A stretch of DNA of 64,000 nucleotides, taken from Terrimicrobiaceae bacterium. GTDB lineage: Bacteria; Verrucomicrobiota; Verrucomicrobiia; Chthoniobacterales; Terrimicrobiaceae. Shown here one piece after another: positions 6,645 through 27,360 of this stretch. The notes beneath the pieces were generated by a model. The model worked only from the letters and a program-made list of their open reading frames with translations. It searched no databases and was not told the DNA's origin. Position 1 is the first letter of the stretch, and the number at the start of each line of letters is the position of its first letter. The stretch lies in contig JAGYIV010000008.1 in assembly GCA_018402345.1 (NCBI GenBank), positions 62,001 through 126,000 of the forward strand, read 5' to 3'. A program made the position numbers and the translations under genes.

Positions 6645-7008
6645 GGCAAACCACACTCGCGGCAATACCTGGGCAGGGTGGCGACTTGTTATCTCCAAAC
6701 TGAATCTGCTGCGGGGACTGCACCATCTCGCCGAGCGACTGATTCATGAGGTTTCCGAGGCGGTATTGCGGATACACATAATGATCGCAGGAGTAGATGT
6801 CGCGGTCGTGCTCGATCGCCAGCGCCGAGCCACATTTTTCGGAGAACACGCAGAGGCCTGGTCCGGCGCCGACCCAATTGCCAAGAGCCACATCGAAAAT
6901 CTGCACGAAATGGCGACCCACATCCTGTCGCACCCATTCGTCAAAAATAGCGCAGAGGAACTCGCCATACTGCGCGGCTTGAACGCTCCAAGGGGTCACA
7001 GAGGATTG
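6645..7008 (-). pseudogene. Remnant of an anaerobic sulfatase maturase (radical SAM/SPASM)
   Basis: Minus-strand translation gives a C-terminal piece of an anaerobic sulfatase-maturating enzyme: QYGEFLCAIFDEWVRQDVG, VQIFDVALGNWVG, GLCVFSEKCG, EHDRDIYSCDHYVYP and YRLGNLM. The cysteines are those of the SPASM domain, which binds auxiliary iron-sulfur clusters. The frame is then shifted: after FGDNK the next family block, LPRYCREC, is found in another frame (about 6655-6677). The N-terminal radical SAM core with CxxxCxxC is absent. It is therefore a dead fragment. These enzymes convert a cysteine or serine of sulfatases to formylglycine. Confidence 0.8.
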
Positions 7009-15568: not shown

Positions 15569-15748
15569 CTACTTCTTTTTTGCTCTCTTCGAGCCCGAAG
15601 ACTTTTGGGACTTCTTCGAAGTAGACTTTTTAGAGCCTTTTGAAGTTGATTTTTTAGAAGTCTTCGCGGTGGATTTTTTGGATTTTTTAATTGTTTCAGG
15701 CTGGCTCCCTCCTCCGCTGGAACGCTGCGACACCCACAAATCTGCCAT
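15569..15748 (-). CDS. Small Lys/Ser-rich protein (histone H1-like tail)
   Basis: From the ATG at 15748 a 59-residue protein is read: about 20 ordinary residues (MADLWVSQRSSGGGSQPETI) followed by about 40 residues made almost only of Lys, Ser, Thr and Gly (KKSKKST, SKGSKKST and SKKSQKS blocks) ending in AKKK. A longer frame extends upstream but overlaps the coding region of the divergent TerB-domain gene and is unlikely. The composition is like histone H1-type nucleoid proteins, but also like the C-terminal tails of three secreted proteins further on (17.5, 24.5 and 26.2 kb), so it may instead be the remaining end of such a protein. No signal peptide is visible. Confidence 0.6.
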   Translation of the reverse strand: MADLWVSQRSSGGGSQPETIKKSKKSTAKTSKKSTSKGSKKSTSKKSQKSSGSKRAKKK

Positions 15749-15838
15749 GGGCGGATGTGGACCAAACGACCTGTCGGGCCGAAAGCGGTTGACTGCCGAT
15801 GATCGTTGAATAACTGATGCTACAGACTTCTGCCTGTC

Positions 15839-16777
15839 ATGAAAATCGACGACCAACTCCCACCCGAAACCAGCGATGCCCTGTTGGCCGTGTGCCTGAT
15901 GGCCGCGATGTGCGATGGTGAGAAATCGGAACTCGAACGCTCGGAGGTGCGCCGCATCGCAACCGAACTCGGCTCGGGTGATCCTGCAGCCCTCTCGCGC
16001 AAAATTCTTTTGGGCCGATTGTCCCTTAATGAGGTGGCCGCCCACATCGTCTCCCCCTCGCATCGCCTGCTTGCCTATGAAATGGCACTCGGCGTCTGCG
16101 AGGCCGATGGAGCGGTCTCCGAGAGTGAAGGGCGTTTTCTTGAAGAGCTTCGTTCCTTGCTTGGCTTGCATGTGGAGGAAACACAGGAGGCTGCCAAAGA
16201 GGTCGACTCCATCCTTCTCGCCCCGGCTTCAATCCCACTCGATTCGCCTGCCGCCTCCTCTGCAGCGACCGACAACAGCGGCATGATTTTGAACTACGCG
16301 ATCCTCAACGGTGCCCTTGAGTTGCTGCCCGAATCCCTCGCAACCATGGCGATTTTGCCCCTCCAGATGAAGATGGTTTACCGTATCGGCAAGTTCCATG
16401 GAGTGGACATGGACAAGTCCCGAATCAAAGAGTTCCTCGCGGTCGCAGGCGTGGGAATCGGCTCCCAAATGCTCGAGGGATTTGCCCGGAAATTTCTGGG
16501 GGGTCTCGGAAAAAAACTCGGCGGCAAACTCGCCGGGAAGGCAGCCAATCAGATCACCGGATCCGCTTTTTCATTCTGCACGACCTACGCCCTCGGCCAT
16601 CTCGCCGAGCAATACCACAAGGGAGGCCAGCGCTTGGATGCGAATTCGGCCCGAACTCTTTTTGAGGCGCTCAAGACGAAAGCCTCCGAATTGCACTCGC
16701 GCCACCTGCCTGAGATCCAGTCCAAAGCCAAATCGATCACCCCCTCCTCGATCCTGCAAATGGTCTCCGGCCAGTAA
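15839..16777 (+). CDS. TerB-like plus DUF697-like protein
   Basis: This 312-residue protein appears to have two domains. Residues about 10-125 are helical with acidic motifs (MAAMCDGEKSELERSEVRRIA and CEADGAVSESEGRFLEEL), the twin metal-binding signature of TerB-like tellurite-resistance domains. After a Pro/Ala/Ser linker, residues 145-260 hold hydrophobic helices (LNYAILNGALELLPESLATMAILPLQMKMVYRIG) like DUF697/YcjF family membrane-associated domains. A Gly-rich segment and a final helix complete it. Function is unknown; TerB domains are linked to membrane stress and metal sensing. It stands alone, divergent from the basic small protein. Confidence 0.75.
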   Translation: MKIDDQLPPETSDALLAVCLMAAMCDGEKSELERSEVRRIATELGSGDPAALSRKILLGRLSLNEVAAHIVSPSHRLLAYEMALGVCEADGAVSESEGRFLEELRSLLGLHVEETQEAAKEVDSILLAPASIPLDSPAASSAATDNSGMILNYAILNGALELLPESLATMAILPLQMKMVYRIGKFHGVDMDKSRIKEFLAVAGVGIGSQMLEGFARKFLGGLGKKLGGKLAGKAANQITGSAFSFCTTYALGHLAEQYHKGGQRLDANSARTLFEALKTKASELHSRHLPEIQSKAKSITPSSILQMVSGQ

Positions 16778-16855
16778 TTCAACCGCCAAAGGCGGCAGCC
16801 GCCATGGAAGCGTGATCCAGCTTGGTTCAGCAGGAGGATTGGGCGGTTTGCCGTG

Positions 16856-16915
16856 GCGAAGTCATTGCCCCGCCGAGCTGCCCTGCATATAACGAAAACC
16901 CTCCAATGGACTTCC
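16856..16915. repeat. Repeat copy 1, shared with the FKP upstream region
   Basis: About 60 bp here match 27299-27360 with only a few substitutions, beginning gcgaagtcattgccccgccg and ending with a start codon context (ccaatggac). In the second copy this ATG is the natural start of the FKP gene. Here it became the start of a VapC-like frame that has lost its normal N-terminus. Confidence 0.85.
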
Positions 16916-17331
16916 AGAGTCCGACCATGGTCGCTCTGGTTGCCGAACTCGGCGGCATCAGCAAACTCATGCGCCCCCAAGCGCAGCCAAGTGTGCGGCG
17001 CTGGGTCGAAGCCCAAGAGGCCATCCTCCCCAGCGTGCTCTCTTTGGAAGAACTCCATTTCGGTCTGCTGCGCAGGGCCCCCCGCCAGAAACGCGACTGG
17101 CTGAATCGCTTCGTAGCCACACGCTGCGAGTGCCTGCCAATCGATGTCACCATCCGCGCGGGGGAAATGCACGACGATCTCACCAAACAATGCCAGACCC
17201 GCTCCCAAGCAGACCCTCTGATCGCAGCAACCGCCGCCACGCACCAAGACATCCTCTCCACCAGCAACACCCGCGACTTTCAGAATCTCAACCTCCCGAT
17301 CTTCAATCCCTTCACCACCCGCAGCCCGTAA
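16906..17331 (+). pseudogene. VapC-like PIN toxin with replaced N-terminus
   Basis: From residue 18 on the protein reads like a standard VapC (SKLMRPQAQPSVRRWVEAQ, PSVLSLEELHFGL, QADPLIAATAATHQDILSTSN and TRDFQNL) with the later acidic residues. The usual first strand, xxLDTNVxS, with the first catalytic aspartate is missing; its place is taken by MDFQSPTMVALVAELGGI. The new start lies in a 60-bp sequence also found upstream of FKP. No antitoxin gene is visible upstream. Loss of the first Asp predicts an inactive nuclease, so I list it as a broken gene. Confidence 0.7.
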
Positions 17332-17350
17332 CCGATCCCCATTCACAGGC

Positions 17351-17385
17351 AAAACGCCCTCGCCCGTTCATCCATGAGGGCGTTT
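17351..17385 (+). terminator. Hairpin after the VapC-like frame
   Basis: A strong perfect stem (aaacgccctc with gagggcgttt) with a 14-base loop lies 20 bp after the stop. The following T run is short (ttt), so it may work poorly as a terminator, or in both directions. Confidence 0.55.
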
Positions 17386-17456
17386 CACGGGAGATCAAGG
17401 CTGACTCAGTGGCACCAAGCCTTGGATCATAGCGGTGGTCTTCTTGCTTCGAAAAC

Positions 17457-17530
17457 TCCTCCTACAACTTCCTGCCATCCTGTCTAAAAAACTCTTTTCG
17501 TGTAAACTCTGTCCGGCATCACTTCTTTTT
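17457..17530. repeat. 3'-flank repeat of basic-tail gene, copy A
   Basis: The stretch reads cctcctacaacttcctgcc, then atcctgtctaaaa, then tgtaaactctgtc and runs into the tail-coding DNA. The same ordered blocks occur at 24347-24500, where extra sequence (gcggtcatagacgcgccgct) lies between them, and partly at 26137-26225 and 48185-48224. Confidence 0.6.
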
Positions 17531-18364
17531 CCCTCCGGATTTTTTCTTTTCGCCACCAGAGGATTTTTTGGCGCTCGACTTCGATCCGCCGTTCTTTTTC
17601 CCTCCGGATTTTTTCTTTTCGCCACCAGAGGATTTTTTGGCGCTCGACTTCGATCCGCCGTTGGATTTTTTGCCGCCGGAGGACTTGGACGCGGATGTCT
17701 TTTTTGAGCCTTTTATGGATTTGGAATTTGACTTGGCTTTCGCCGACTTTGAGGCCGAGGATTTTTTCGAGCCCTTGCCTTTTTCCTCTACTTTTTGAGG
17801 CGGAGTATCGGCGCTCTTAAGCGGAGTTACACTTGGAGAGGATATGACTGTGCCTTCTGCGGTTGGAGTGCCTACTGCCACTAAGCTGTCCACGGCACCG
17901 TCTTCCGGTATTTCGAAGGCATTCGTGCCACGCTCACTCTCGATTTGATTCGAAGTGTAGTAAGAATAAGGTTTCCCCCCGCCGCTTGAGCCTTCCGGAA
18001 ACCAGACCATGGCCAGCTTGTCGCCGCTTTTCCAACTGGTGGATTCCAGATTCCGAGGTGTAACATTGAATCCTCGGCCCACACCTGGAAACTCCACTGT
18101 TCGGAGTCCAGCCATGACCACGGTGTCGTCATCCCCCCACTTGGAGCCGACTACCGATTCGCTTTTGTTTTCCAAGATCGTTGGGGACTTGGCAAAGTCG
18201 AAACCATCACCTGCCGTATCGACGATGAGGAATCCCTTCGAGCCCTCGGGAAATTCCGCAGGGCTTCCACCTATGGCGACTTCGAGTTTTGATGTGGAGG
18301 ATTCAGCGATTCCCGTGACGCCAAGAATCGATGCAATAAGGGAAAAAAGAGTTTTTTTTGACAT
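17519..18364 (-). CDS. Secreted protein with long Lys/Ser/Gly tail (tail protein 1)
   Basis: The 281-residue protein has a signal peptide (MSKKTLFSLIASILGVTGIAESS). A mature domain of about 150 residues (LEVAIGGSPAEFPEGSKGFLIVDTAGDGFDF through NAFEIPEDGAVDSLVAVGTP) follows, reminiscent of the TIGR02597-type neighbour in its property-value-like segments. From residue about 190 a low-complexity tail of about 90 residues rich in Lys, Ser, Gly and Ala runs to the end. The tail begins TPPQKVEEKGKGSKKSSASKS, which closely matches the tail start of the 24.5-kb protein. Part of the tail is a 23-residue unit repeated in tandem. No hydrophobic anchor or PEP-CTERM motif is present. Function unknown. Confidence 0.75.
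   Translation of the reverse strand: MSKKTLFSLIASILGVTGIAESSTSKLEVAIGGSPAEFPEGSKGFLIVDTAGDGFDFAKSPTILENKSESVVGSKWGDDDTVVMAGLRTVEFPGVGRGFNVTPRNLESTSWKSGDKLAMVWFPEGSSGGGKPYSYYTSNQIESERGTNAFEIPEDGAVDSLVAVGTPTAEGTVISSPSVTPLKSADTPPQKVEEKGKGSKKSSASKSAKAKSNSKSIKGSKKTSASKSSGGKKSNGGSKSSAKKSSGGEKKKSGGKKNGGSKSSAKKSSGGEKKKSGGKKK
17524..17661 (-). repeat. Tandem 69-bp repeat coding the basic tail
   Basis: Two almost identical 69-bp units (start offset 69 bp, 17523/17592) encode the 23-residue unit with GGSKSSAKKSSGGEKKKSGG, and a third partial unit follows. Unit length is a multiple of three, so copy-number change would keep the frame. Confidence 0.9.
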
Positions 18365-18373
18365 ACCAGTGGA

Positions 18374-19495
18374 TCAGTAGTTGGGTTGATTGTTCCAGAA
18401 CGTGGTTGAGCTGTTGCCTTGGGATTTTCTGATGATTAGGGAGCCAGATGCTGAGAGTGAAAATGTTGCAGCGGCAGAATTGGCCCCGGCTTTCCCCTCA
18501 TCGAGAAACCATGTTTGGGAATTTTTGTAAAAAACAGCTGAAGGGCTTTTGTTGAACCTCGCCAAGCTGTTATCGAAGACCAGCAACTCGTCCTTGCGCG
18601 CCCCGGATTCATGGGAGGCACTGGAGGCGAAGGCTGTTTCGTCCAAGCCTGCATTCGACAATGGCACTTCCACTGGCCGAAACAAGGCAACCGAATTGTC
18701 TTGGCGATTGGCAGGGTCTTGAGTGAGCGCCACTGAGTCTGCCGAGCGAAGCACCCGGCCGACGGGTTCAAAATTCGTGGCGACGACTCCGGCGGGGTGG
18801 CGAATGATGAATGGCAGACCGGGCGGAAGAATTGTGCTTCCCGCATCTGGGTAACCGGGCTCTGACAATTTCCAACCTTCCTCTAATTTTTTCCAAACCC
18901 CTTCGGATTCTTCCCAGCGCTCCGCTGCCAGAAAATAAATATTCTTTGCCGGCAGGTTGATTCCCACAGACTCAACATTCGGGATAAGCAGCTTGGATTT
19001 CTGCTGATACACCAGATTACCGGTGGATTTATGAAAGGTTGTCTGGCTGCCGGGAGGGAACAAGGTGTCGAGTGTCCAGAATTCCACAACCATGAAGGCA
19101 TCGCCTGCCGCGAAAGCCGAGCCAGCTTCTCCATTCAAATCAATTGTGAGACCACTGGCGGTATTTCCCACAATTTCATACCACCGACCAGCCAAGGCTC
19201 CTGTGGTGAAACGAGCATAATGGGTGTTTTGCAATTCATTGGGAGCCCATTCTGTGGCCTCAGCAGGCGTCAAGGCGGCTTGCCCCTTTGCGAGCGTCGG
19301 TGCTGACGCCAGCGTTTTGCTCGCCTTTATAGGCAGCTTCATGAGAGGGACCGAAACAAGGGTATCGGATTTCGCGGGGCACTTCACACGGTTGAATCCC
19401 ACGATAGGGTTTTCAGCCGAAGCCAATGGCAACCCAGACAAAGCCAAGGCGACAGAAGTTGCCAGCAAATAATGGTAAAAGACCGGTATTTTCAT
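18374..19495 (-). CDS. TIGR02597-type secreted protein
   Basis: This 373-residue protein has a signal peptide (MKIPVFYHYLLATSVALALSGLPLASA) and then GFNRVKCPAKSDTLVSVPLMK, the usual start of the verrucomicrobial TIGR02597 family (GSDTLVSVP). The middle holds beta-rich repeats (YYARFTTGALAGRWYEIVGN-like and FMVVEFWTLDTLFPPG) and the protein ends in STTFWNNQPNY, like the family's (D/T)(F/W)W-N-PNY end. The family is known essentially from Verrucomicrobiota; function is unknown, presumed extracellular. It ends 10 bp before the start of tail protein 1, which is transcribed in the same direction, so the two may form an operon. Confidence 0.85.
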   Translation of the reverse strand: MKIPVFYHYLLATSVALALSGLPLASAENPIVGFNRVKCPAKSDTLVSVPLMKLPIKASKTLASAPTLAKGQAALTPAEATEWAPNELQNTHYARFTTGALAGRWYEIVGNTASGLTIDLNGEAGSAFAAGDAFMVVEFWTLDTLFPPGSQTTFHKSTGNLVYQQKSKLLIPNVESVGINLPAKNIYFLAAERWEESEGVWKKLEEGWKLSEPGYPDAGSTILPPGLPFIIRHPAGVVATNFEPVGRVLRSADSVALTQDPANRQDNSVALFRPVEVPLSNAGLDETAFASSASHESGARKDELLVFDNSLARFNKSPSAVFYKNSQTWFLDEGKAGANSAAATFSLSASGSLIIRKSQGNSSTTFWNNQPNY

Positions 19496-19650
19496 AATAT
19501 GTAATTTTTCGAGTTAATTGGTTGGATTATATTTTGGGATTCCGGAAGTTGCTGGACCAAGTCTGCGGCGCCAGCCATCGAAAACAGCGCCTTAGAGTCT
19601 ATCCAAAATTATCATTTAAATTTTCATTTTGAGCGATTTATATCGAATAG

Positions 19651-22600
19651 TTAATCCAACGGTATATCAATCCAAAATCCCCACTCGGGTCCTTCTGTTT
19701 TAATTATAGACACGTCTCCATCGAAGCCCTCGACTAAATCAGAGGCGAATGCGAATTCATCTTCGTCGAGTAAGTAAAAAGGATCCACAGCGATGCGTTC
19801 AGTCAAGCCACCCTCGAAATCGGCTCCAGCATCGGCTCCAGCATCGGCTCCAGCATCGGCTCCAGCTTCGGCGACTGCCTCTCCTCCAGCATCTACAGCA
19901 ACGTCAGTTACATCTGCGGCAAGCGCGATATCCCCCACTCCCCCCGTGGCGACGGTTAAGATCGCCACACCAACGATTTCGCCGACGATCTCCTCGGTAA
20001 CCACAGCCCATGGGGGCTGAAACTTGATTTCGTTCGCCGTCTCGAGCTGAAAGTGGGCGCCCGCCGGTGTGCCACCGCTGGCGTCCGGAAGGCTTTGCCC
20101 GCTCGGGGAATCGAGATAGCCATAGTATCCCAAGCCCGCGTTCTGGATCGTCATCGTCCAGTGCTGGCCGGGCTTCATCTGGGAGTTGAGCGACGGGGAG
20201 ATGTTTGCGGCCCATTTCCCGCTCGAGCCCGAGCCATTGTTCCAGTTTGTGAGGTAGGTGCTGCAATTGGGCCCTACGCAGGTGCCGTCGGCCTTCTGGA
20301 CAAAAAAGGTCATCTGGCTCGTGCTGTCCGGCGCGACATAGGCGATCAATGTTTGCTGCCCCATCGGCACCGTCACCTGCTTCGTCGTGTAGGTCGGGGG
20401 CGTAATCTGGATGTCGAGCAGGCGGACGTCCGAGTTCGTCGGCAGCGTGATGCTCTTCAGCGTCTTGCCAGAGGGGATCGTGTAGCTGTATTGGTAGATA
20501 TGGTTCGTGGTCTGATTCGTGTCGCCGGAGGCGTTGTCACGGTATGACGCCGTGGCGATGATCGACTCGTTCGTGTAGTCCTCCGGGTTGCACCAGTCGC
20601 TGAACGACTGCGTCCAGACCGCCGTCGAGTTGTCGGTGAAGGTCAGCGTGAGCGGCTGGTTCTCCTGGCCGCCGTTGACGGCGGCCCCGGCCAGGTTCAG
20701 CGTTGTGTAGCTGCTGCCCTGCGGCACCTGAATCGTCTGGCCGTTGGCGACCACGAAGTTGGGCTGCCCGGGGAGGCCCAGTGTGAAGTTGACGCTCGTC
20801 CCGCGGAGGATCTTCGACGATCCGAGGGCCTCCCACGAGTAGGCGTTGCCATCGCCGTCGAAGCCGCCCCCGCTAAAAGACTGGCCGTCTCTGCTGATGC
20901 CGCCGATGGAGGCGATGCTGCTGAGCGCGACGGACGTCGTCGATCCCTTCACCGGCTGGTCGGCGAAGAAGAACGTGAGCGGCCCGCCACCGGCCCCGAT
21001 GTTCGACTCATTCGCGATGGTCAACGCCATCAGGTCGATGCCCGTCAAGTTGGTGGTGGCGAGCACAAGCGATGCGAAACCCTCGTCCAGGGCGATCACT
21101 GGGGCCTTGGACACGACGGCACTGAGGATGCCCACATTCTCGTTGTTCGGCAGAGTGAAGCTCGCCAGTTGCTTGCCGCGCAGGTTGCGGACATAGGCGA
21201 AGATATGAGCTGGAGTGGTGACCAGATTGCCCTGCTGGTTGATCCGCTCGGGCTGGGTCTTCAGGAGCAACTCCCCACTAAAAGGGCGGGGTGCCGGACC
21301 GGAGTTGCCATCCGCACTCGCTCCCTGCTGCGGTGGGCCGTCGCTCGCCCAGTCGTGGAATGATTGATACCATGTCTCCGTGGTTCCGTCGGTGAAATTG
21401 AGCATGATCGACTGCGACATTTGGTTGCCGTTGGATGCCGCTCCGGCGAGGTAGAGGTAGTCGGACTTGTCGGCGTCCACGCTGACCGTGATCGTCTGCC
21501 CCTTGGCCTGGACAAAGTTCTGCGGGCCTTTGCTTCCACCCACCTGGGAGTTGCTCGTGGGAATCGGGCCGATCGGGAACTCGATACCGGCATAGGTGAT
21601 GGGCGTGCCGGGGACGGGATCCTTTGTGCTTCCGCCGGTGTAGTCGGAGTTGTAATAATTGCCGTTTCGATCGAAGCCTTGGTGGTTGGCCACCTGCCAC
21701 GGGCTCGTCGTGATGCCGAACGCGTTGAAGTAGCTCGACAAGTCGATCGGCGTCGAGACCGGGGCCGGCGCGCTCGCGCCCAAAGTCGCCGGGCTTGCGG
21801 ACCGGGAGAGGGTTGGGGCCATCGCCGTGGAATACTCGAGACGCTTGCGCAAACTGATCATACCGTATGGCACAGTATAGTCGTGCGAGAAGCCCCCGTC
21901 CGAACCCACTGGGATTCTGGCCTCTTCCAGCCACGGGCCGTATGAGCCATCACCAAGGATTTGAGCTGATTCCACCACGATCGTGGCCCCGGCTCGGACG
22001 CTCGCATCCACATTCCCGGCGAACCGGAGCGTCTCCCCGGCCTGGAAGTGGACCCGCGTCTGATCGGGCTGCACCTCGCCATTCACGGTGCCGGGAAAGA
22101 GATGGCTGGCGAAGATCGGATTGTCTTTGAGTATGACGTTTTGGGCAGGCGTCAACTTGTTGGAGTCTGATGAGATGATCATCGGGGTCTCCGCCGGCAA
22201 GCCCCGTGCGGCTTCGGTGGCGTCCGGGAGAGCCTGCACTTCCAGATACGCGAACTGCGCGTGGCTGCCGCCGAGCGGATGGTTTGTCGTAAACTTTGTC
22301 GCAGTGGGGCTGTTATCAAGCTGCGCCCGCGCTTTGATGCCAAACCCTACGAACGAGGCGCTGCTGGTGACGGTGTAATTCAACCACCTCACGGCTCTTT
22401 CAGTTGCAACGGCTTGGTAAGGGTGAGCCTTGCCGGCACCGGTCTTGGTCGCACCCCATACCTTGGCCTTCATCACCGCACCTCCTTCCACGATCGAAAG
22501 TGCGTTGACGCTGTAGGGCAGGTTGTAGAGCAAAGTCTGTCCATCTTCGCGGGTCGCTTCGATCGAGTATCGGGTGCTCGGGCAGCCGCAACCATCGATG

Positions 22601-23955
22601 GGTTTGCTCCAAGTGATGGTGTTTCCAACACCGTCCTGCGATTGAATGCGGGCGTTCACGACATTGCCCGGCACCGTCCCAACCGCCGGGACCGGCTGCG
22701 TGGCACCACCCACCCTGTCCAAGGGGATCACATCAAATGCAGCTCCCATGCCCCTGGCACTTGCGGCAGGCGTCCATCTCACCGTATCGGTGTATGCGAT
22801 GGTGCGGATGGCAGGAGCGTTTTCCAAAGTGGTCGGGTCTGTTCCCAAGGCTTCCGCTGGAATCTGCACCCATGCGTTGTCAGCAGCCACCCACTTCTGG
22901 AGTGTGCCGCCGTGCACCTTGGTCACGATGAACCCTTGGGACTGGCCGCCGAGAATATGCGAGGGCGTGAGTTCGACAGTCCACCCGCTCGAGGCATCGA
23001 GCATCACTGTCCGAGGCCCGATGACAACAACTGTGAAATTCGCCGGGGCGCTTTCGAGTCCGGCTTCGCCAGTGGCCACCGCCAAAACTTCATGGGAGCC
23101 ATTTGCAAGGCGCGGCGACTGGAACGACCATATACCCGTTTGGGCATCAGCCTGCGCCTGACCCGCCACCACCCCGTTGATAGTCACTTTCACCTGACTG
23201 CCAAGTGGAGCAGTTCCGCTGAAGAGGGGTTCGCTCTCGGTCGTCCGCCCATCGCCCTTTGCGCCAGTATCCGATGCATCTCCAAGCGCAAGCGTCGGAG
23301 CCGCAGGCGGAGTCGTTTGGATAGTGACAAACAGGGGCGAGGAGAGTTCACCGGCTTCCTCCGAGGCATCCACCGGAGTGACGGCGATCGTGTGGACGCC
23401 AGCAGAGAGTGGCGCCTCGGCAGGCACCGTGTATGTCCACACGCCATTTTCCACCGGGACCAGTTCGCCGGGTTGCCCGTTGATAGAGATCCGCACATGG
23501 CTCGCTGCGCCCAGCACGCTGCCGCGAAGGGTGGGTGTGCGGTCGTATGTCACACCATCGACAGCGGAAGACCCAGTGTCGCTGGAAGAGGCGAGGCTGG
23601 GGGATTGTGCAAACAGGCCTAGGACCTGCAGGCGGTAGAAACCACCCGTGGAATTTCCCACCGCGTGTAGAAAGGAGCCTGTGGTATTGTTCGAGGAAAG
23701 TGTTTCCCAGCTCAGGAGATTCAAACTGTGCTCGAGATTTGCCGAGCCGCTTGCCGTGGCGTTCCAAGAGACCGAGGCGTTGCCGCCATCGAGCAGAATA
23801 GTGAGGCCCGGATCGGCTTGGGCGGGGGGGAGCGCGAGGTTGGCGAACAAATTCGCCGTGAGGAGGCAGGGAGTGAGGCGTCCGGAGAAAAGTTTTTTTA
23901 GTCCAGCCGCAGCGGCTGAGGATTTTGGGTGATTATTTTTCATAGTGTGATGCAT
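19651..23955 (-). CDS. Large secreted multidomain protein with Ig-like domains
   Basis: This 1434-residue protein has a signal peptide ending near LPPAQA (residue 47). It has a fibronectin-like first segment (LTILLDGGNASVSWNAT), then two bacterial Ig-like domains (about residues 115-315; each with VKVTINGVV or VRISINGQP and W(T/S)Y or WSF strands). A TIGR02597-like stretch, a further Fn3-like domain (NTITWSKPIDGCGCPSTRYSIEA) and two related beta-sandwich domains with YLYLAGAASNGNQ...MLNFTDGTTETW and TLNLAGAAVNGGQ...TLTFTDNSTAVW follow. The C-terminus has a short hydrophobic segment, an AGAD repeat and an acidic end. ATGs lie at 23955 and 23943. Likely an exported adhesin or surface-matrix protein; activity is unknown. 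Confidence 0.85.
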   Translation of the reverse strand: MHHTMKNNHPKSSAAAAGLKKLFSGRLTPCLLTANLFANLALPPAQADPGLTILLDGGNASVSWNATASGSANLEHSLNLLSWETLSSNNTTGSFLHAVGNSTGGFYRLQVLGLFAQSPSLASSSDTGSSAVDGVTYDRTPTLRGSVLGAASHVRISINGQPGELVPVENGVWTYTVPAEAPLSAGVHTIAVTPVDASEEAGELSSPLFVTIQTTPPAAPTLALGDASDTGAKGDGRTTESEPLFSGTAPLGSQVKVTINGVVAGQAQADAQTGIWSFQSPRLANGSHEVLAVATGEAGLESAPANFTVVVIGPRTVMLDASSGWTVELTPSHILGGQSQGFIVTKVHGGTLQKWVAADNAWVQIPAEALGTDPTTLENAPAIRTIAYTDTVRWTPAASARGMGAAFDVIPLDRVGGATQPVPAVGTVPGNVVNARIQSQDGVGNTITWSKPIDGCGCPSTRYSIEATREDGQTLLYNLPYSVNALSIVEGGAVMKAKVWGATKTGAGKAHPYQAVATERAVRWLNYTVTSSASFVGFGIKARAQLDNSPTATKFTTNHPLGGSHAQFAYLEVQALPDATEAARGLPAETPMIISSDSNKLTPAQNVILKDNPIFASHLFPGTVNGEVQPDQTRVHFQAGETLRFAGNVDASVRAGATIVVESAQILGDGSYGPWLEEARIPVGSDGGFSHDYTVPYGMISLRKRLEYSTAMAPTLSRSASPATLGASAPAPVSTPIDLSSYFNAFGITTSPWQVANHQGFDRNGNYYNSDYTGGSTKDPVPGTPITYAGIEFPIGPIPTSNSQVGGSKGPQNFVQAKGQTITVSVDADKSDYLYLAGAASNGNQMSQSIMLNFTDGTTETWYQSFHDWASDGPPQQGASADGNSGPAPRPFSGELLLKTQPERINQQGNLVTTPAHIFAYVRNLRGKQLASFTLPNNENVGILSAVVSKAPVIALDEGFASLVLATTNLTGIDLMALTIANESNIGAGGGPLTFFFADQPVKGSTTSVALSSIASIGGISRDGQSFSGGGFDGDGNAYSWEALGSSKILRGTSVNFTLGLPGQPNFVVANGQTIQVPQGSSYTTLNLAGAAVNGGQENQPLTLTFTDNSTAVWTQSFSDWCNPEDYTNESIIATASYRDNASGDTNQTTNHIYQYSYTIPSGKTLKSITLPTNSDVRLLDIQITPPTYTTKQVTVPMGQQTLIAYVAPDSTSQMTFFVQKADGTCVGPNCSTYLTNWNNGSGSSGKWAANISPSLNSQMKPGQHWTMTIQNAGLGYYGYLDSPSGQSLPDASGGTPAGAHFQLETANEIKFQPPWAVVTEEIVGEIVGVAILTVATGGVGDIALAADVTDVAVDAGGEAVAEAGADAGADAGADAGADFEGGLTERIAVDPFYLLDEDEFAFASDLVEGFDGDVSIIKTEGPEWGFWIDIPLD
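19819..19866 (-). repeat. 12-bp minisatellite in the large secreted protein
   Basis: Four tandem units of atcggctccagc encode the (AGAD)n stretch near the C-terminus of the 1434-residue protein. Unit length divisible by three keeps the frame when copy number varies. Confidence 0.95.
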
Positions 23956-24473
23956 TTTTTCTTCTGTGCGCGATAACCAAAAAAGTGAGCGGCAATCCCA
24001 TCAGGCCCGGCCAAGAGAGCAGGGATGTGAATGTAAAAATGTGAGGTTTCTGGATGGGTTGTAAAAACAAGGAGTGTCTTTAGTTCATTTCACCTCATGA
24101 GCGCAACAGGCTCATCGGGGTATTTTCGGGGTATTGGCGCCGGTATGCGGGTGCGGCGGGACGACCAACCGGCGGAGGGAAAATGCAAGCGGTCTGGACG
24201 CCCATTGCCGCTACAGGGATTCTTCCTTGTGCGCGAATACCGGTTCGTGTTCATAGTCGGGGAATGGATCGTCGAGCCGGGTTCCGACTGCCCGCCGTAG
24301 CGGAAAGGCGAACAAAGGATAAACGGCTCGCCGCGTTTTCGGGTATCCCTCCTGCACTTCCTGTTCCTCCTGTCATCTTGTCTAAAATCCCATTCCCCGA
24401 AATTCTCTTTATTTTGTAAATTCTGTCTGAAGAACCAACGGCGGTCATAGACGCGCCGCTACAGCAGGAGGCA
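23956..24473. other. 518-bp intergenic region holding 3'-flank repeat copy B
   Basis: No convincing gene is seen; a 67-codon plus-strand frame at 24097 lacks family motifs. The left part is probably the promoter and leader of the large secreted protein. From 24347 the region carries the blocks cctcctgcacttcctg, catcttgtctaaaa, tttgtaaattctgtctga and gcggtcatagacgcgccgct, which form the 3' flank of the next basic-tail gene and recur at 17.5 and 26.1 kb. Confidence 0.6.
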
Positions 24474-26087
24474 TCATGCCTTCTTCTTCTTTTTCAGTTT
24501 TTTAGTGCCAGATTTTTTTGCTGAGCTGCCAGTGGTGGATTTTGATTTGGCCCTCGCCGATTTCAAAGCGGAGGATTTTTTGGCGCCTTTGCCTTTTTTG
24601 GCGCCTTTGCCTTTTTTGGCCTTTTGAGGCGGAGTTCCATTAGACTCCTTGAGCAAGACAGCCAAGCCGGGATCGGTTGTTGTAGGCGCCTGGGCCTCCA
24701 CCCGCATGAGGCCGAGCTCCGTTCCCTGATAAAGCACCCCATCAGGACTGATCATGCCGACCATCTGCAGCGGGTTGTCTTCGGTTGAGGATCCGTAGGG
24801 AGCGCTGCTGAGCAATCGACCGGTATCCGGATCAATCGTGATGATGCTGTAAACTCCGGTGCTGGTGTCGAGTCCAACGGTGTAGATAAGGTTGTCGGCA
24901 ACCGACAGGCGCGGCTCTGCGGCAGAGGCGATCGAGTTATTCGACCAGACGGTCCGGAGGGAGCCGTCGAGCACATCCACCCGCTGCATACCCCCCACGA
25001 ACGGGGCGGATACCGGAACGCTTTCTTCGGGGTTTTCGGCCGATTTTGGATATGGGTAGCCATAGGTGCTCGGGTAATAAATGCTGTGCCCCACGGCAAT
25101 CGCCGCATCCTCGTTGCCGCTGTTGACGCCGGCAGTGAGTAAGGGGACCGAGCCCACCAGATTGCCGGAGAGGGTTTCGTAAACCAAGATGTTCTCTTGC
25201 GGGGCGGCATTGTCGGTGATCGTAAGGTATTCGTAGCCGGTTTCGGGCCCGAAAAAAGCCGGCGTGGCACCCGTGCCCCAACTCAACTGCCCCGGCTTGC
25301 GGCCTGGACCTGCGTCATAGGTGTTCCGCCATAGCTGCTGGGGTCCGCTGGTGCCCGCAGTGAACAAATAGAGCGCTGCTGTGGAAGCAACAGCCACACC
25401 GTCGGGTGAGGACGAGATGCTATTGGCAACCTGCTCGCCGGCTGGTAGTGCAAACACCGCAGTGACCGAAGTGATGGGGTCGTAGTAGCCAATCACCGCT
25501 CCCGAGGCGGAGGATGTCCCTTGGGCGGTGGCAAACCAGACATTGCCCTGGTAGTCGGGGACAAGACCAACAACGTCTGGATAACCAATTTGCACCGAGG
25601 AGTCGACATTGAGAGTCCACGAACTGTTACCACTTTGGGTGTGGGAAATCCTCTGGAGATAGCCTTCGGCGTTGACGAGAACCAAGTTGTCGTTGTTGTC
25701 CAAGTAAGAGTAAATTCCACCCGCAAGGTCGCTCGTCGTGGACTTGACGAGTTGCATCGGCGCCGCAAGCGTCTTGAGCGTGGTCGGGTCGAGGAGGAAA
25801 ACAGTGGGTGTTCTGTCGGTCACCTTGGTGGCGACCGCTACGATCAAACCGTCAGACCCCATAAGGATGGTTGGAAAAACGGCACCGAGATTCGTGCCAA
25901 TAATCGAGAGATCTCCAGATCCCGGCCCAGGGTTCGTGGTGGCGCCGGTAGACGCTGCGTTGGCATGCATTGTAGCGGTGCCGGGCTCGCCCATGAAAGG
26001 ATTCGCCGGAGGAAAAGTTTGTGCTGAGACAGCGATCGCAAGAAAGAAGAAACAACCCCCGATACACAACCTCAGAATAAGAGCCAT
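24474..26087 (-). CDS. Secreted beta-propeller-like protein with basic tail (tail protein 2)
   Basis: The 537-residue protein has a signal peptide (MALILRLCIGGCFFFLAIAVSAQ). A body of about 450 residues with repeated strand blocks follows (NNDNLVLVNAEGYLQRI, GNVWFATAQGT, DGVAVASTAALYLF, DNLIYTVGLDTSTGVYSIITIDPDTGRLL, DGVLYQGTELGLMRVE), as in PQQ-like or YVTN-like propellers. It ends in about 65 Lys-rich residues that start TPPQKAKKGKGAKKGKGAKKSS, almost the same as the tail start of tail protein 1, and finish KKLKKKKKA. It is presumably exported; the tail could bind polyanions such as LPS, exopolysaccharide or DNA. The role is unproven. Confidence 0.78.
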   Translation of the reverse strand: MALILRLCIGGCFFFLAIAVSAQTFPPANPFMGEPGTATMHANAASTGATTNPGPGSGDLSIIGTNLGAVFPTILMGSDGLIVAVATKVTDRTPTVFLLDPTTLKTLAAPMQLVKSTTSDLAGGIYSYLDNNDNLVLVNAEGYLQRISHTQSGNSSWTLNVDSSVQIGYPDVVGLVPDYQGNVWFATAQGTSSASGAVIGYYDPITSVTAVFALPAGEQVANSISSSPDGVAVASTAALYLFTAGTSGPQQLWRNTYDAGPGRKPGQLSWGTGATPAFFGPETGYEYLTITDNAAPQENILVYETLSGNLVGSVPLLTAGVNSGNEDAAIAVGHSIYYPSTYGYPYPKSAENPEESVPVSAPFVGGMQRVDVLDGSLRTVWSNNSIASAAEPRLSVADNLIYTVGLDTSTGVYSIITIDPDTGRLLSSAPYGSSTEDNPLQMVGMISPDGVLYQGTELGLMRVEAQAPTTTDPGLAVLLKESNGTPPQKAKKGKGAKKGKGAKKSSALKSARAKSKSTTGSSAKKSGTKKLKKKKKA

Positions 26088-26136
26088 TGAATGACTCTCG
26101 CTTCGCCCACCAGAAATTCAATGATGAAATCGAGGG

Positions 26137-26225
26137 TAAATTCTTTCTGAAAAACCAAAGGCGGTCATAGACGCGCCGCTACAGAGGAAGGCAGCATGCC
26201 TATTTCTTCTTTTTCGATTTTTTAG
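26137..26225. repeat. 3'-flank repeat of basic-tail gene, copy C
   Basis: About 88 bp including ggtaaattctttctga, the exact block gcggtcatagacgcgccgct and the adjoining tail-coding DNA align with 24416-24505 at high identity. The alignment covers the non-coding 3' flank and the last codons of two otherwise different genes. Confidence 0.75.
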
Positions 26226-27124
26226 CGGTGGATTTTTTCTTTCCGCCGCCACTCGACTTTTTCGCCGAGGACTTTTGGGATCCAGCAGATTTCTTGGCCT
26301 TGGATTTCTTAGCAGAGGAGGATTTGCCACCGCTTTTTTTGGATTGCTGGACTTGCGAGGAGCCCCCGCCTCCACTTGGCGCACCTCCGCCTCCGGTGCC
26401 CCCACTTGCTGGAGTTGCTGGAGTTACTGCAACTCCTGTCACAGTCAGCTCCTGCGTGACACTGGGTGCCGCATTGTAGTTGGCATCCCCCCCCTGGCTG
26501 ACCGTCAGCGTCGCGGTCCCGGCGCCAACCACGCTCACCGTGCCATTGGCCGCCACTGTCGCCACGCTCTCGTTTGAACTCGCGTAGCCGAGCGTGAGAT
26601 TCGAGCTCGCCGTGGCATTCAAGGAATACGCCGCAGACGCCACCTCCTTGGACAGCGTCGCGGCAACTCCGCTGATCGTCTGGCTGCCTTTGGCGATGGT
26701 CAGCGTGACCGATCGATTCACTGTGTTGTAGTTTGTTGTGTCAGCGGGCGTGAAGACGACGGCCAGCGTTTGATTTCCAGCCTCGGGGACGGTTCCAGTC
26801 ACCGGCGTGTAACTGAATGTTCCGTTGACGCTTGCGCTTGCGTTCAACTGCGCTCCACTCAGGGCCGATCCATAGGTGATCGACTCTGCTGTTGCTCGTA
26901 TCAATGCTGAGGCACAATGACTCCGTCGCCGCATCGAGAAGAATCACATGCTTCAAATTTGCAATAGATGAAACCGCCGTGGCATTGCCCGCAGTCCAAT
27001 CTGTGGAAAAGCAAGAGGTGAGGATTTCGTCAAATGGCTTGGGACCGCTAACCGAGACGGCGCAATCTGCATTGCAGAGGAAAAGGAACAAAAAGCAAAA
27101 AGCGGAAGAGACGAAGCGTTTCAT
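26200..27124 (-). pseudogene. Secreted MBG/Big-domain protein with basic tail, frameshifted (tail protein 3)
   Basis: Two minus-strand frames join. The first (from the ATG at 27124) gives a signal peptide (MKRFVSSAFCFLFLFLCNADC) and about 55 residues including FDEILTSCFSTDW. It moves out of frame near 26890-26905. The second frame continues with ATAESITYGSALSGAQLNA and a full MBG-like domain, a Big_2-like domain (YASSNESVATVAANGTVSVV), a Gly/Pro-rich linker and a Lys/Ser/Ala tail ending AKKSKKKK. A single base change in length would restore one gene of about 305 residues. It is either a real frameshift mutation or a sequencing error. Confidence 0.72.
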
Positions 27125-27298
27125 TTGATTTTTAAGTGCAATGATAAATTTATAGTTTTGAGAGATTTGAAGAAAAATCCATCTAGTCGACCTTTCTATC
27201 CGTCGAACTACAAATGTAGCTCTGCATTTCTCCCAACCTGCACCTTGAGTAGCACTGGCGTCGCAACCCCAGATTATTAGATGTGGTCGCGGATTTCC

Positions 27299-27360
27299 GC
27301 GAAGTCATTGCCCCGCCGAGATGCCCTGCATATAACGAAAAACCTCCAATGGACATCCAG
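27299..27360. repeat. Repeat copy 2, at the FKP start
   Basis: This is the partner of 16856-16915. It ends with the ATG and first codons of FKP. Because the start of FKP fits its family (RLISLPPAM), this copy is probably the original and the 16.9-kb one the transplanted copy. Confidence 0.8.

Follow-up and report, generated by a model that had tools for sequence, protein, structure and literature searches.

In diderm bacteria that have EPS genes, a variety of proteins with signal peptides carry a common end module, the PEP-CTERM signal of the exosortase (EpsH) system (PF07589, TIGR02595, PF09721), which includes a Pro-Glu-Pro motif and a single TM helix and labels its carriers for an exosortase-linked association with the surface or with EPS (PMC1569441). 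GlyGly-CTERM/rhombosortase (TIGR03501) combines a Gly-rich lead and a basic end with a TM helix, and there is precedent for C-terminal tags being exchanged within protein families, in this case including subtilases (PMC3237569). Lys-rich C-terminal repeats also occur on a mycobacterial surface protein, HbhA, whose Lys-rich domain binds sulfated glycans and DNA (PMC10665949); HbhA is, however, a single protein with K/A/P repeats and no signal peptide, and does not represent a module placed on unrelated exported proteins. Lys-rich low-complexity repeats are likewise a property of histone H1-like and HU proteins, which are cytoplasmic, DNA-binding and of K/A/P composition. The tails described here resemble each of these in part. 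Like PEP-CTERM they form the end of diverse signal-peptide proteins, and features of that system are present, among them signal peptides (on the genes at 17.5, 24.5, 136 and 137.7 kb) and an exosortase in the genome; yet the tails have neither the Pro-Glu-Pro motif nor the TM helix, being basic and disordered throughout, and the K/S/G tail itself is not an exosortase substrate under any known rule. Unlike GlyGly-CTERM they lack a TM helix, and their Gly-rich stretch is a long linker rather than a cleavage motif. The tailed proteins gave no Pfam match to HbhA, their bodies being beta-rich and their tails K/S/G, and they differ from the histone-like proteins in composition and in having signal peptides, one 15.6-kb open reading frame (ORF) excepted. 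The tail would act like a C-terminal localisation tag and belongs to no named family.

The window, that is, the whole stretch of 64,000 nucleotides that was analysed, corresponds to positions 62001-126000 of contig 2 in a 3.14-Mb genome (G000) of 17 contigs that is 96% complete and has close homologues in MAGs labelled Chthoniobacterales, Chthoniobacter and Verrucomicrobia, which probably places it within Chthoniobacterales or close by. A sequence-only reading had reported four minus-strand genes with low-complexity basic ends, and translation does give K/S/G ends at 15569-15748, 17519-18364, 24474-26087 and 26200-26934. These four tails are 40-91 aa long, with 34-43% Lys, 16-34% Ser, 0-2 hydrophobic residues each and a net charge of +18 to +30, and end in KKKKK, KKSKKKK or GGKKK; the hydrophobic anchor, PEP-CTERM and LPXTG signals that the same reading had reported absent were not found here either. 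In the intact tailed proteins, acidic bodies (-10 to -49) are joined to tails of +22 to +30. When C-termini were scored by their last 35 residues (at least 25 K/S/G/A/T and at least 8 Lys), eight were recovered from the 604 kb of this genome that was sampled by stretches, versus none in three Markov shuffles and none in the reversed sequence. A KKS-repeat DNA pattern matched nine times in this genome, versus zero for a reversed control pattern, and all nine matches lie within contig 2, 77.6-137.8 kb. Because the controls gave nothing and the KKS matches are confined to this region, the tails are neither products of chance nor a genome-wide trait.

The tails are related to one another (47-74% identity, with invariant KK, GG and KS positions) and can be divided into two subtypes. 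Three canonical tails in this genome are 64-74% identical and have the common lead GGGG..PSGGG..QV.KSKK.GGKSSSAKK; the lead GGGG..PSGGG..QVQKSKKGGGKSSSAKK of the canonical tails is also present on a subtilase of a second genome of the genus (G008). The tails at 17.5 and 24.5 kb make up the second subtype, which is led by TPPQK and similar at the DNA level; their nearly identical beginnings (TPPQK...KKSSA-KSA-AKS) had already been remarked upon and are present in both protein and DNA. The Gly-rich linker is confined to one subtype, and no sharp conserved motif is common to both. Tails of this kind have spread by recombination and by repeat copying. In the 17.5-kb tail, a perfect tandem duplication of 69 bp (17523-17662) records a recent expansion through repeat copying, and the tail of the 24.5-kb gene contains an 18-bp tandem repeat (24576-24620); a neutral origin of the tails is therefore possible, and is weighed further below. 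With a confidence slightly below even, the tails may be regarded as one lineage-specific, recombining C-terminal module, in which a Gly-rich linker or a TPPQK lead is followed by a disordered polycationic K/S/G repeat.

The window genes differ in how complete they are. At 15569-15748 (minus strand, ATG at 15748) a 59-aa basic ORF begins with SSGGGSQPETIKKSKK, which resembles a tail linker; it has no signal peptide and no homologue among the loci compared, and probably represents either an orphan fragment of a tail or a small basic protein in its own right. The gene at 17519-18364 (minus strand) encodes a 281-aa exported protein with a K/S/G tail of 91 aa and net charge +28 (17519-17794, minus strand); its body has no Pfam or NCBIfam match, and single-sequence structure prediction gave a mean pLDDT of 35. 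Next to it on the same strand lie the genes for a TIGR02597-family exported protein without a tail (18374-19495) and for a 1434-aa tail-free protein with Big_13 Ig-like domains (19651-23955). These three genes form a conserved unit that is also found in another genus member (G006, locus L142), where the TIGR02597 protein (92% identity) adjoins a tailed orthologue as it does here and the giant Ig-like protein is 87% identical. Within the giant gene, a 12-bp tandem repeat of about 4.5 copies (19819-19893) encodes an AGADAGAD run.

The gene at 24474-26087 (minus strand) encodes a 537-aa exported protein for which AlphaFold2 predicted a beta-propeller body and disorder from residue 478 to the end; the best solved structural match to the body is the propeller Rv3035, at 13% identity. 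Its K/S/G tail, from TPPQK on, occupies 24474-24638 (minus strand), with 49 aa after the Q and a net charge of +22. The most typical copy of the module lies at 26200-26934 (minus strand), where MBG/Big_2-like domains are followed by a Gly-rich linker (GGGGAPSGGGGSSQVQQ) and a K/S tail. Signal peptides had been claimed for the proteins at 17.5, 24.5 and 26.2 kb; the first two bear this out, whereas at 26.2 kb the signal peptide belongs to a separate ORF (26741-27124, minus strand) that overlaps the tail ORF on its 5′ side and is in another frame. A homologue of the N-terminus of this ORF in G012 (62-aa match, 82%) continues as a different, longer protein, and so the 26.2-kb locus looks broken or newly fused; it looks like an out-of-frame junction of two genes, or a sequencing frameshift. 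Signal peptides at 17.5, 24.5, 136 and 137.7 kb were judged by eye from the ORF starts. The window proteins had no match to a type IX secretion CTD in Pfam or NCBIfam, and tailed proteins outside the window were scanned against Pfam only.

The set had been placed within 12 kb; its four members are indeed there, but the set is wider, with more at contig 2, 136.0, 137.7 and 639 kb and on contig 3. A short way past the end of the window, at 135.9-137.6 kb of contig 2, there is a tailed RCC1 protein, and at 137.6-141.1 kb a tailed protein with NHL, Ig-like, TSP3 and RCC1 domains, both with signal-peptide-like starts. The body of the RCC1 gene at 136 kb has 40% GC versus 48% for its tail, as would be expected if the module had been attached to a gene that came from elsewhere; as the GC content of a tail is also set by its residues, this contrast is only suggestive. 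A subtilase at contig 2, 639.4 kb has a K/S tail, as does its G008 homologue, and on a second subtilase of G008 the module is of the canonical form (GGGGGGGGVPAPPSGGGSPAQVQKPKKGGAKSSAKKPSGG...KKKKK); the tailed subtilases include forms with and without a P-domain. At 85 kb of contig 3, an NHL/MBG frame of 1310 aa runs out in SSGG repeats, after which the tail is read in a different frame; this leaves a doubt between a broken frame and a sequencing frameshift, as is suspected at 26.2 kb. The tailed bodies are thus propeller, RCC1, NHL/Ig-like/TSP3 and subtilase proteins. The earlier proposal, that exported proteins whose bodies are unrelated share a movable, strongly basic module at the C-terminus, holds for the intact genes, and extends to the subtilases, the RCC1 and NHL/RCC1 proteins and two more species; it is not supported for the loci at 15.6 and 26.2 kb.

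Two further features of contig 2 lie close to the tailed subtilase. A match at 638.8 kb was discarded as a tail, being internal to another ORF. Adjoining the subtilase gene, at 633-648 kb (L088/L136), are very long ORFs in several frames with GGxGxDxLxGGxGNDTYFVD-like repeats, which we take to be of RTX type; their frameshifts suggest assembly indel errors or decay.

Distribution was assessed with tail profiles. Among 213 order-level genomes, matches were found only in this genome, in G008 and in one protein of a distant relative (G146), and among 388 phylum-level genomes, a set that was drawn evenly and may not include G008, only this genome matched; neither set yielded an exported tailed protein outside the genus. 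A broader profile adds G006 within the genus, so that tails are present in 3 of the 16 genus members sampled (this genome, G006 and G008). Literature searches turned up nothing specific on such tails in Verrucomicrobia or Planctomycetes. The occurrence of similar tails on cytoplasmic proteins had been named as evidence against an export-related role, and here the outcome is divided. The G146 protein (L072, 1000-1605), presumably DUF892-like, is K/S/G-tailed without an evident signal peptide, a probable case of convergence, and G008 encodes an 83-aa basic protein of AKKP repeats (L155, 6641-6892), also without a signal peptide and possibly histone-like. These two proteins show that a basic tail by itself need not go with export. 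In this genome, no tail was detected on an identified cytoplasmic protein. The same observations bear on whether the tails could belong to nucleoid proteins, as DNA-binding segments like those of histone H1, with export a mis-annotation. This would suit the 15.6-kb ORF, which has no signal peptide, and draws on the AKKP-rich protein of G008, but that protein is K/A/P where the tails are K/S/G, and the intact tailed proteins combine signal peptides with domains of extracellular type. For the genes at 17.5, 24.5, 136 and 137.7 kb the idea is largely refuted, and the 15.6-kb ORF is the one case to which it could apply; overall it is extremely improbable.

The position of the tail can be compared with that of a known tag in the propeller family. 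Homologues of the 24.5-kb body are 57-81% identical in Verrucomicrobia, Planctomycetes and one actinomycete MAG, and 41-46% identical in Streptomyces and Mycobacterium. Five PVC-labelled homologues (L004, L005, L007, L036 and L009/L037, the last pair being one genome; L008 and L010 were left out of this comparison of C-terminal tags) end in ..RVEAVPEPST..TM..RRRR, which is a PEP-CTERM signal. Another homologue (L006) has neither PEP-CTERM nor a K/S tail, and the actinobacterial ones mostly end at the VEA position. Alignment of the window protein with its homologues runs to VEA, after which it reads QAPTTTDPGLAVLLKESNGTPPQK and enters the K/S tail, which stands exactly where relatives have PEP-CTERM and resembles the tail of the 17.5-kb gene 6 kb away. 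Relatives with the same bodies but no tails had been expected to count against a secretion or anchoring role; propeller relatives are of this kind, but PEP-CTERM stands in the place of the tail, and the objection is not upheld. This shared position suggests a related job, with a PEP-CTERM relative found for one tailed family only, the propeller.

The window genome retains two exosortases (PF09721 matches), and so PEP-CTERM sorting has not been lost from it. PF07589 has one match in the whole genome, and the 604-kb sample contains one C-terminal tag of TM and basic type. As PF07589 misses some verrucomicrobial PEP-CTERM signals (PMC1569441), the count for this genome is a lower bound; low PF07589 counts are also seen in the tail-free genus members G003 and G015. 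That two exosortase homologues remain though PF07589 finds a single PEP-CTERM protein could be taken to mean that the tail is a signal for sorting or secretion that a dedicated partner recognises, such as an exosortase paralogue, an outer-membrane translocon or a modifying enzyme. GlyGly-CTERM was found in a like manner, from unrelated signal-peptide proteins that share only the C-terminus and have relatives with other tags (PMC3237569). Enzyme-linked tags are, however, tripartite (PMC3237569), whereas the K/S/G tails have no TM segment and no sharp motif across both subtypes, and are of low complexity with repeat turnover, and a dedicated partner is accordingly considered improbable.

Orthologues provide a view of how the tails are maintained. 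Between the 17.5-kb protein and its G006 orthologue, the body is 89% identical and the tail 64% identical in aligned positions; the orthologue's tail is shorter (54 versus 91 aa) and diverged, and is still K/S. From 18 to 20 Lys are kept between the two tails; an estimate over gapped positions speaks more strongly for retention than the ungapped one given next, but depends on the aligner. In an ungapped block of 43 aa, 11 Lys are common to G000 and G006, versus 7.0±1.6 kept when evolution without selection was simulated from the G006 sequence with the same number of base changes (P 0.009), and 8.2±1.6 when it was simulated from the G000 sequence (P 0.07). Retention is significant from one starting sequence only, and suggests that there may be selection on the Lys content of the tail. 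The subtilases of G000 and G008 are 64% identical over the tested 259-aa region, and both are K/S-tailed though the tail sequence has diverged.

These comparisons bear on the main rival explanation, in which the tails are near-neutral C-terminal extensions with little function, whose K/S/G repeats arose by slippage and were spread by recombination or gene conversion, export being incidental. The perfect 69-bp and 18-bp duplications are what slippage would leave, and the unequal tail lengths of the orthologues, the presence of tails in so few of the genus members sampled, the broken copy at 26.2 kb and the orphan at 15.6 kb all agree with it. It accounts less well for the persistence, in G006 as in the subtilase pair, of a tail that diverges faster than the body, for Lys retention above the neutral model from one starting sequence, or for the lack of any detected tail on an identified cytoplasmic protein of this genome. 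On balance this explanation is unlikely.

The reading preferred here, tentatively and with chances just short of even, is that the tail is a retention device: no membrane anchor would be needed to hold Sec-exported, surface-type proteins at the cell or close to it, and the tail would stand in for PEP-CTERM. The intact tailed genes encode signal peptides, and their products would be exported via Sec. A tail of +20 to +30 could then bind polyanions that belong to the cell itself, in its envelope or matrix, such as LPS phosphates and uronates or acidic exopolysaccharide, and the bound tail would stop the acidic bodies (propeller, Ig-like and subtilase) from leaving the cell or its vicinity. On the propeller, the tail would do what PEP-CTERM does on its homologues, and the module has moved between genes by recombination and grown by repeat expansion. 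The polyanions might instead be foreign ones (extracellular DNA, algal sulfated or uronic polysaccharide, particle surfaces), in which case the tailed proteins would be adhesive or substrate-docking. The Lys-rich C-terminal repeats of HbhA do bind DNA and sulfated glycoconjugates (PMC10665949), and the tailed bodies include proteases and Ig-like domains; but no substrate-specific genes adjoin the tails, and an exchange with a self-sorting tag fits self-retention better, which makes foreign targets quite unlikely. A broader reading, in which the K/S/G module is a genus-specific, exosortase-independent C-terminal localisation code, picked up by recombination, put in place of PEP-CTERM on homologous proteins and read by envelope polyanions or a dedicated partner, is doubtful.

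If retention by the tail is correct, the propeller family would offer a natural tag swap, one exported body bearing a membrane-processed sorting signal when it occurs in relatives and a polycationic tail that acts electrostatically in this genome, and a sorting tag could be replaced without a new enzyme. For an uncultured group, it would also provide a simple rule, open to testing, that predicts which secreted proteins remain cell-bound, and would explain why C-terminal homology searches for TM-bearing tags overlook such proteins.

Several sequences resembling the tails, or lying beside them, are of other kinds. Pattern matches in G009, G010 and G014 (L066, L067 and L068) were rejected as tails, the basic K/S/P stretch being an internal linker and not C-terminal. 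The proteins in question, from three tail-free genus members, are exported and have a long, variable K/S/P linker behind the signal peptide, followed by a domain that is presumably amidase-like. A match in G004 (L069) was likewise set aside, being an Ala/Lys protein, small and exported, whose K/D/E/S end does not match the module. The sequence that follows the stop codons at 24.5 and 26.2 kb (TGTAGCGGCG.GTCTATGACCGCC) is not part of the module, being a palindrome that is also present away from tails. This palindromic repeat, TGTAGCGGCGGTCTATGACCGCCG, is REP- or terminator-like and mostly intergenic, and occurs at 24440-24464 and 26160-26184 in the window and at 6838, 8432, 9880 and 17600 of L057. 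Another repeated element (TTATATGCAGGGCA.CTCGGCGGGGCAATGACTTCGC) has two copies, at about 16850-16920 and 27290-27350, directly 5′ of a PIN-domain gene and of a 982-aa gene, and the called starts of both of these ORFs probably fall inside the element.
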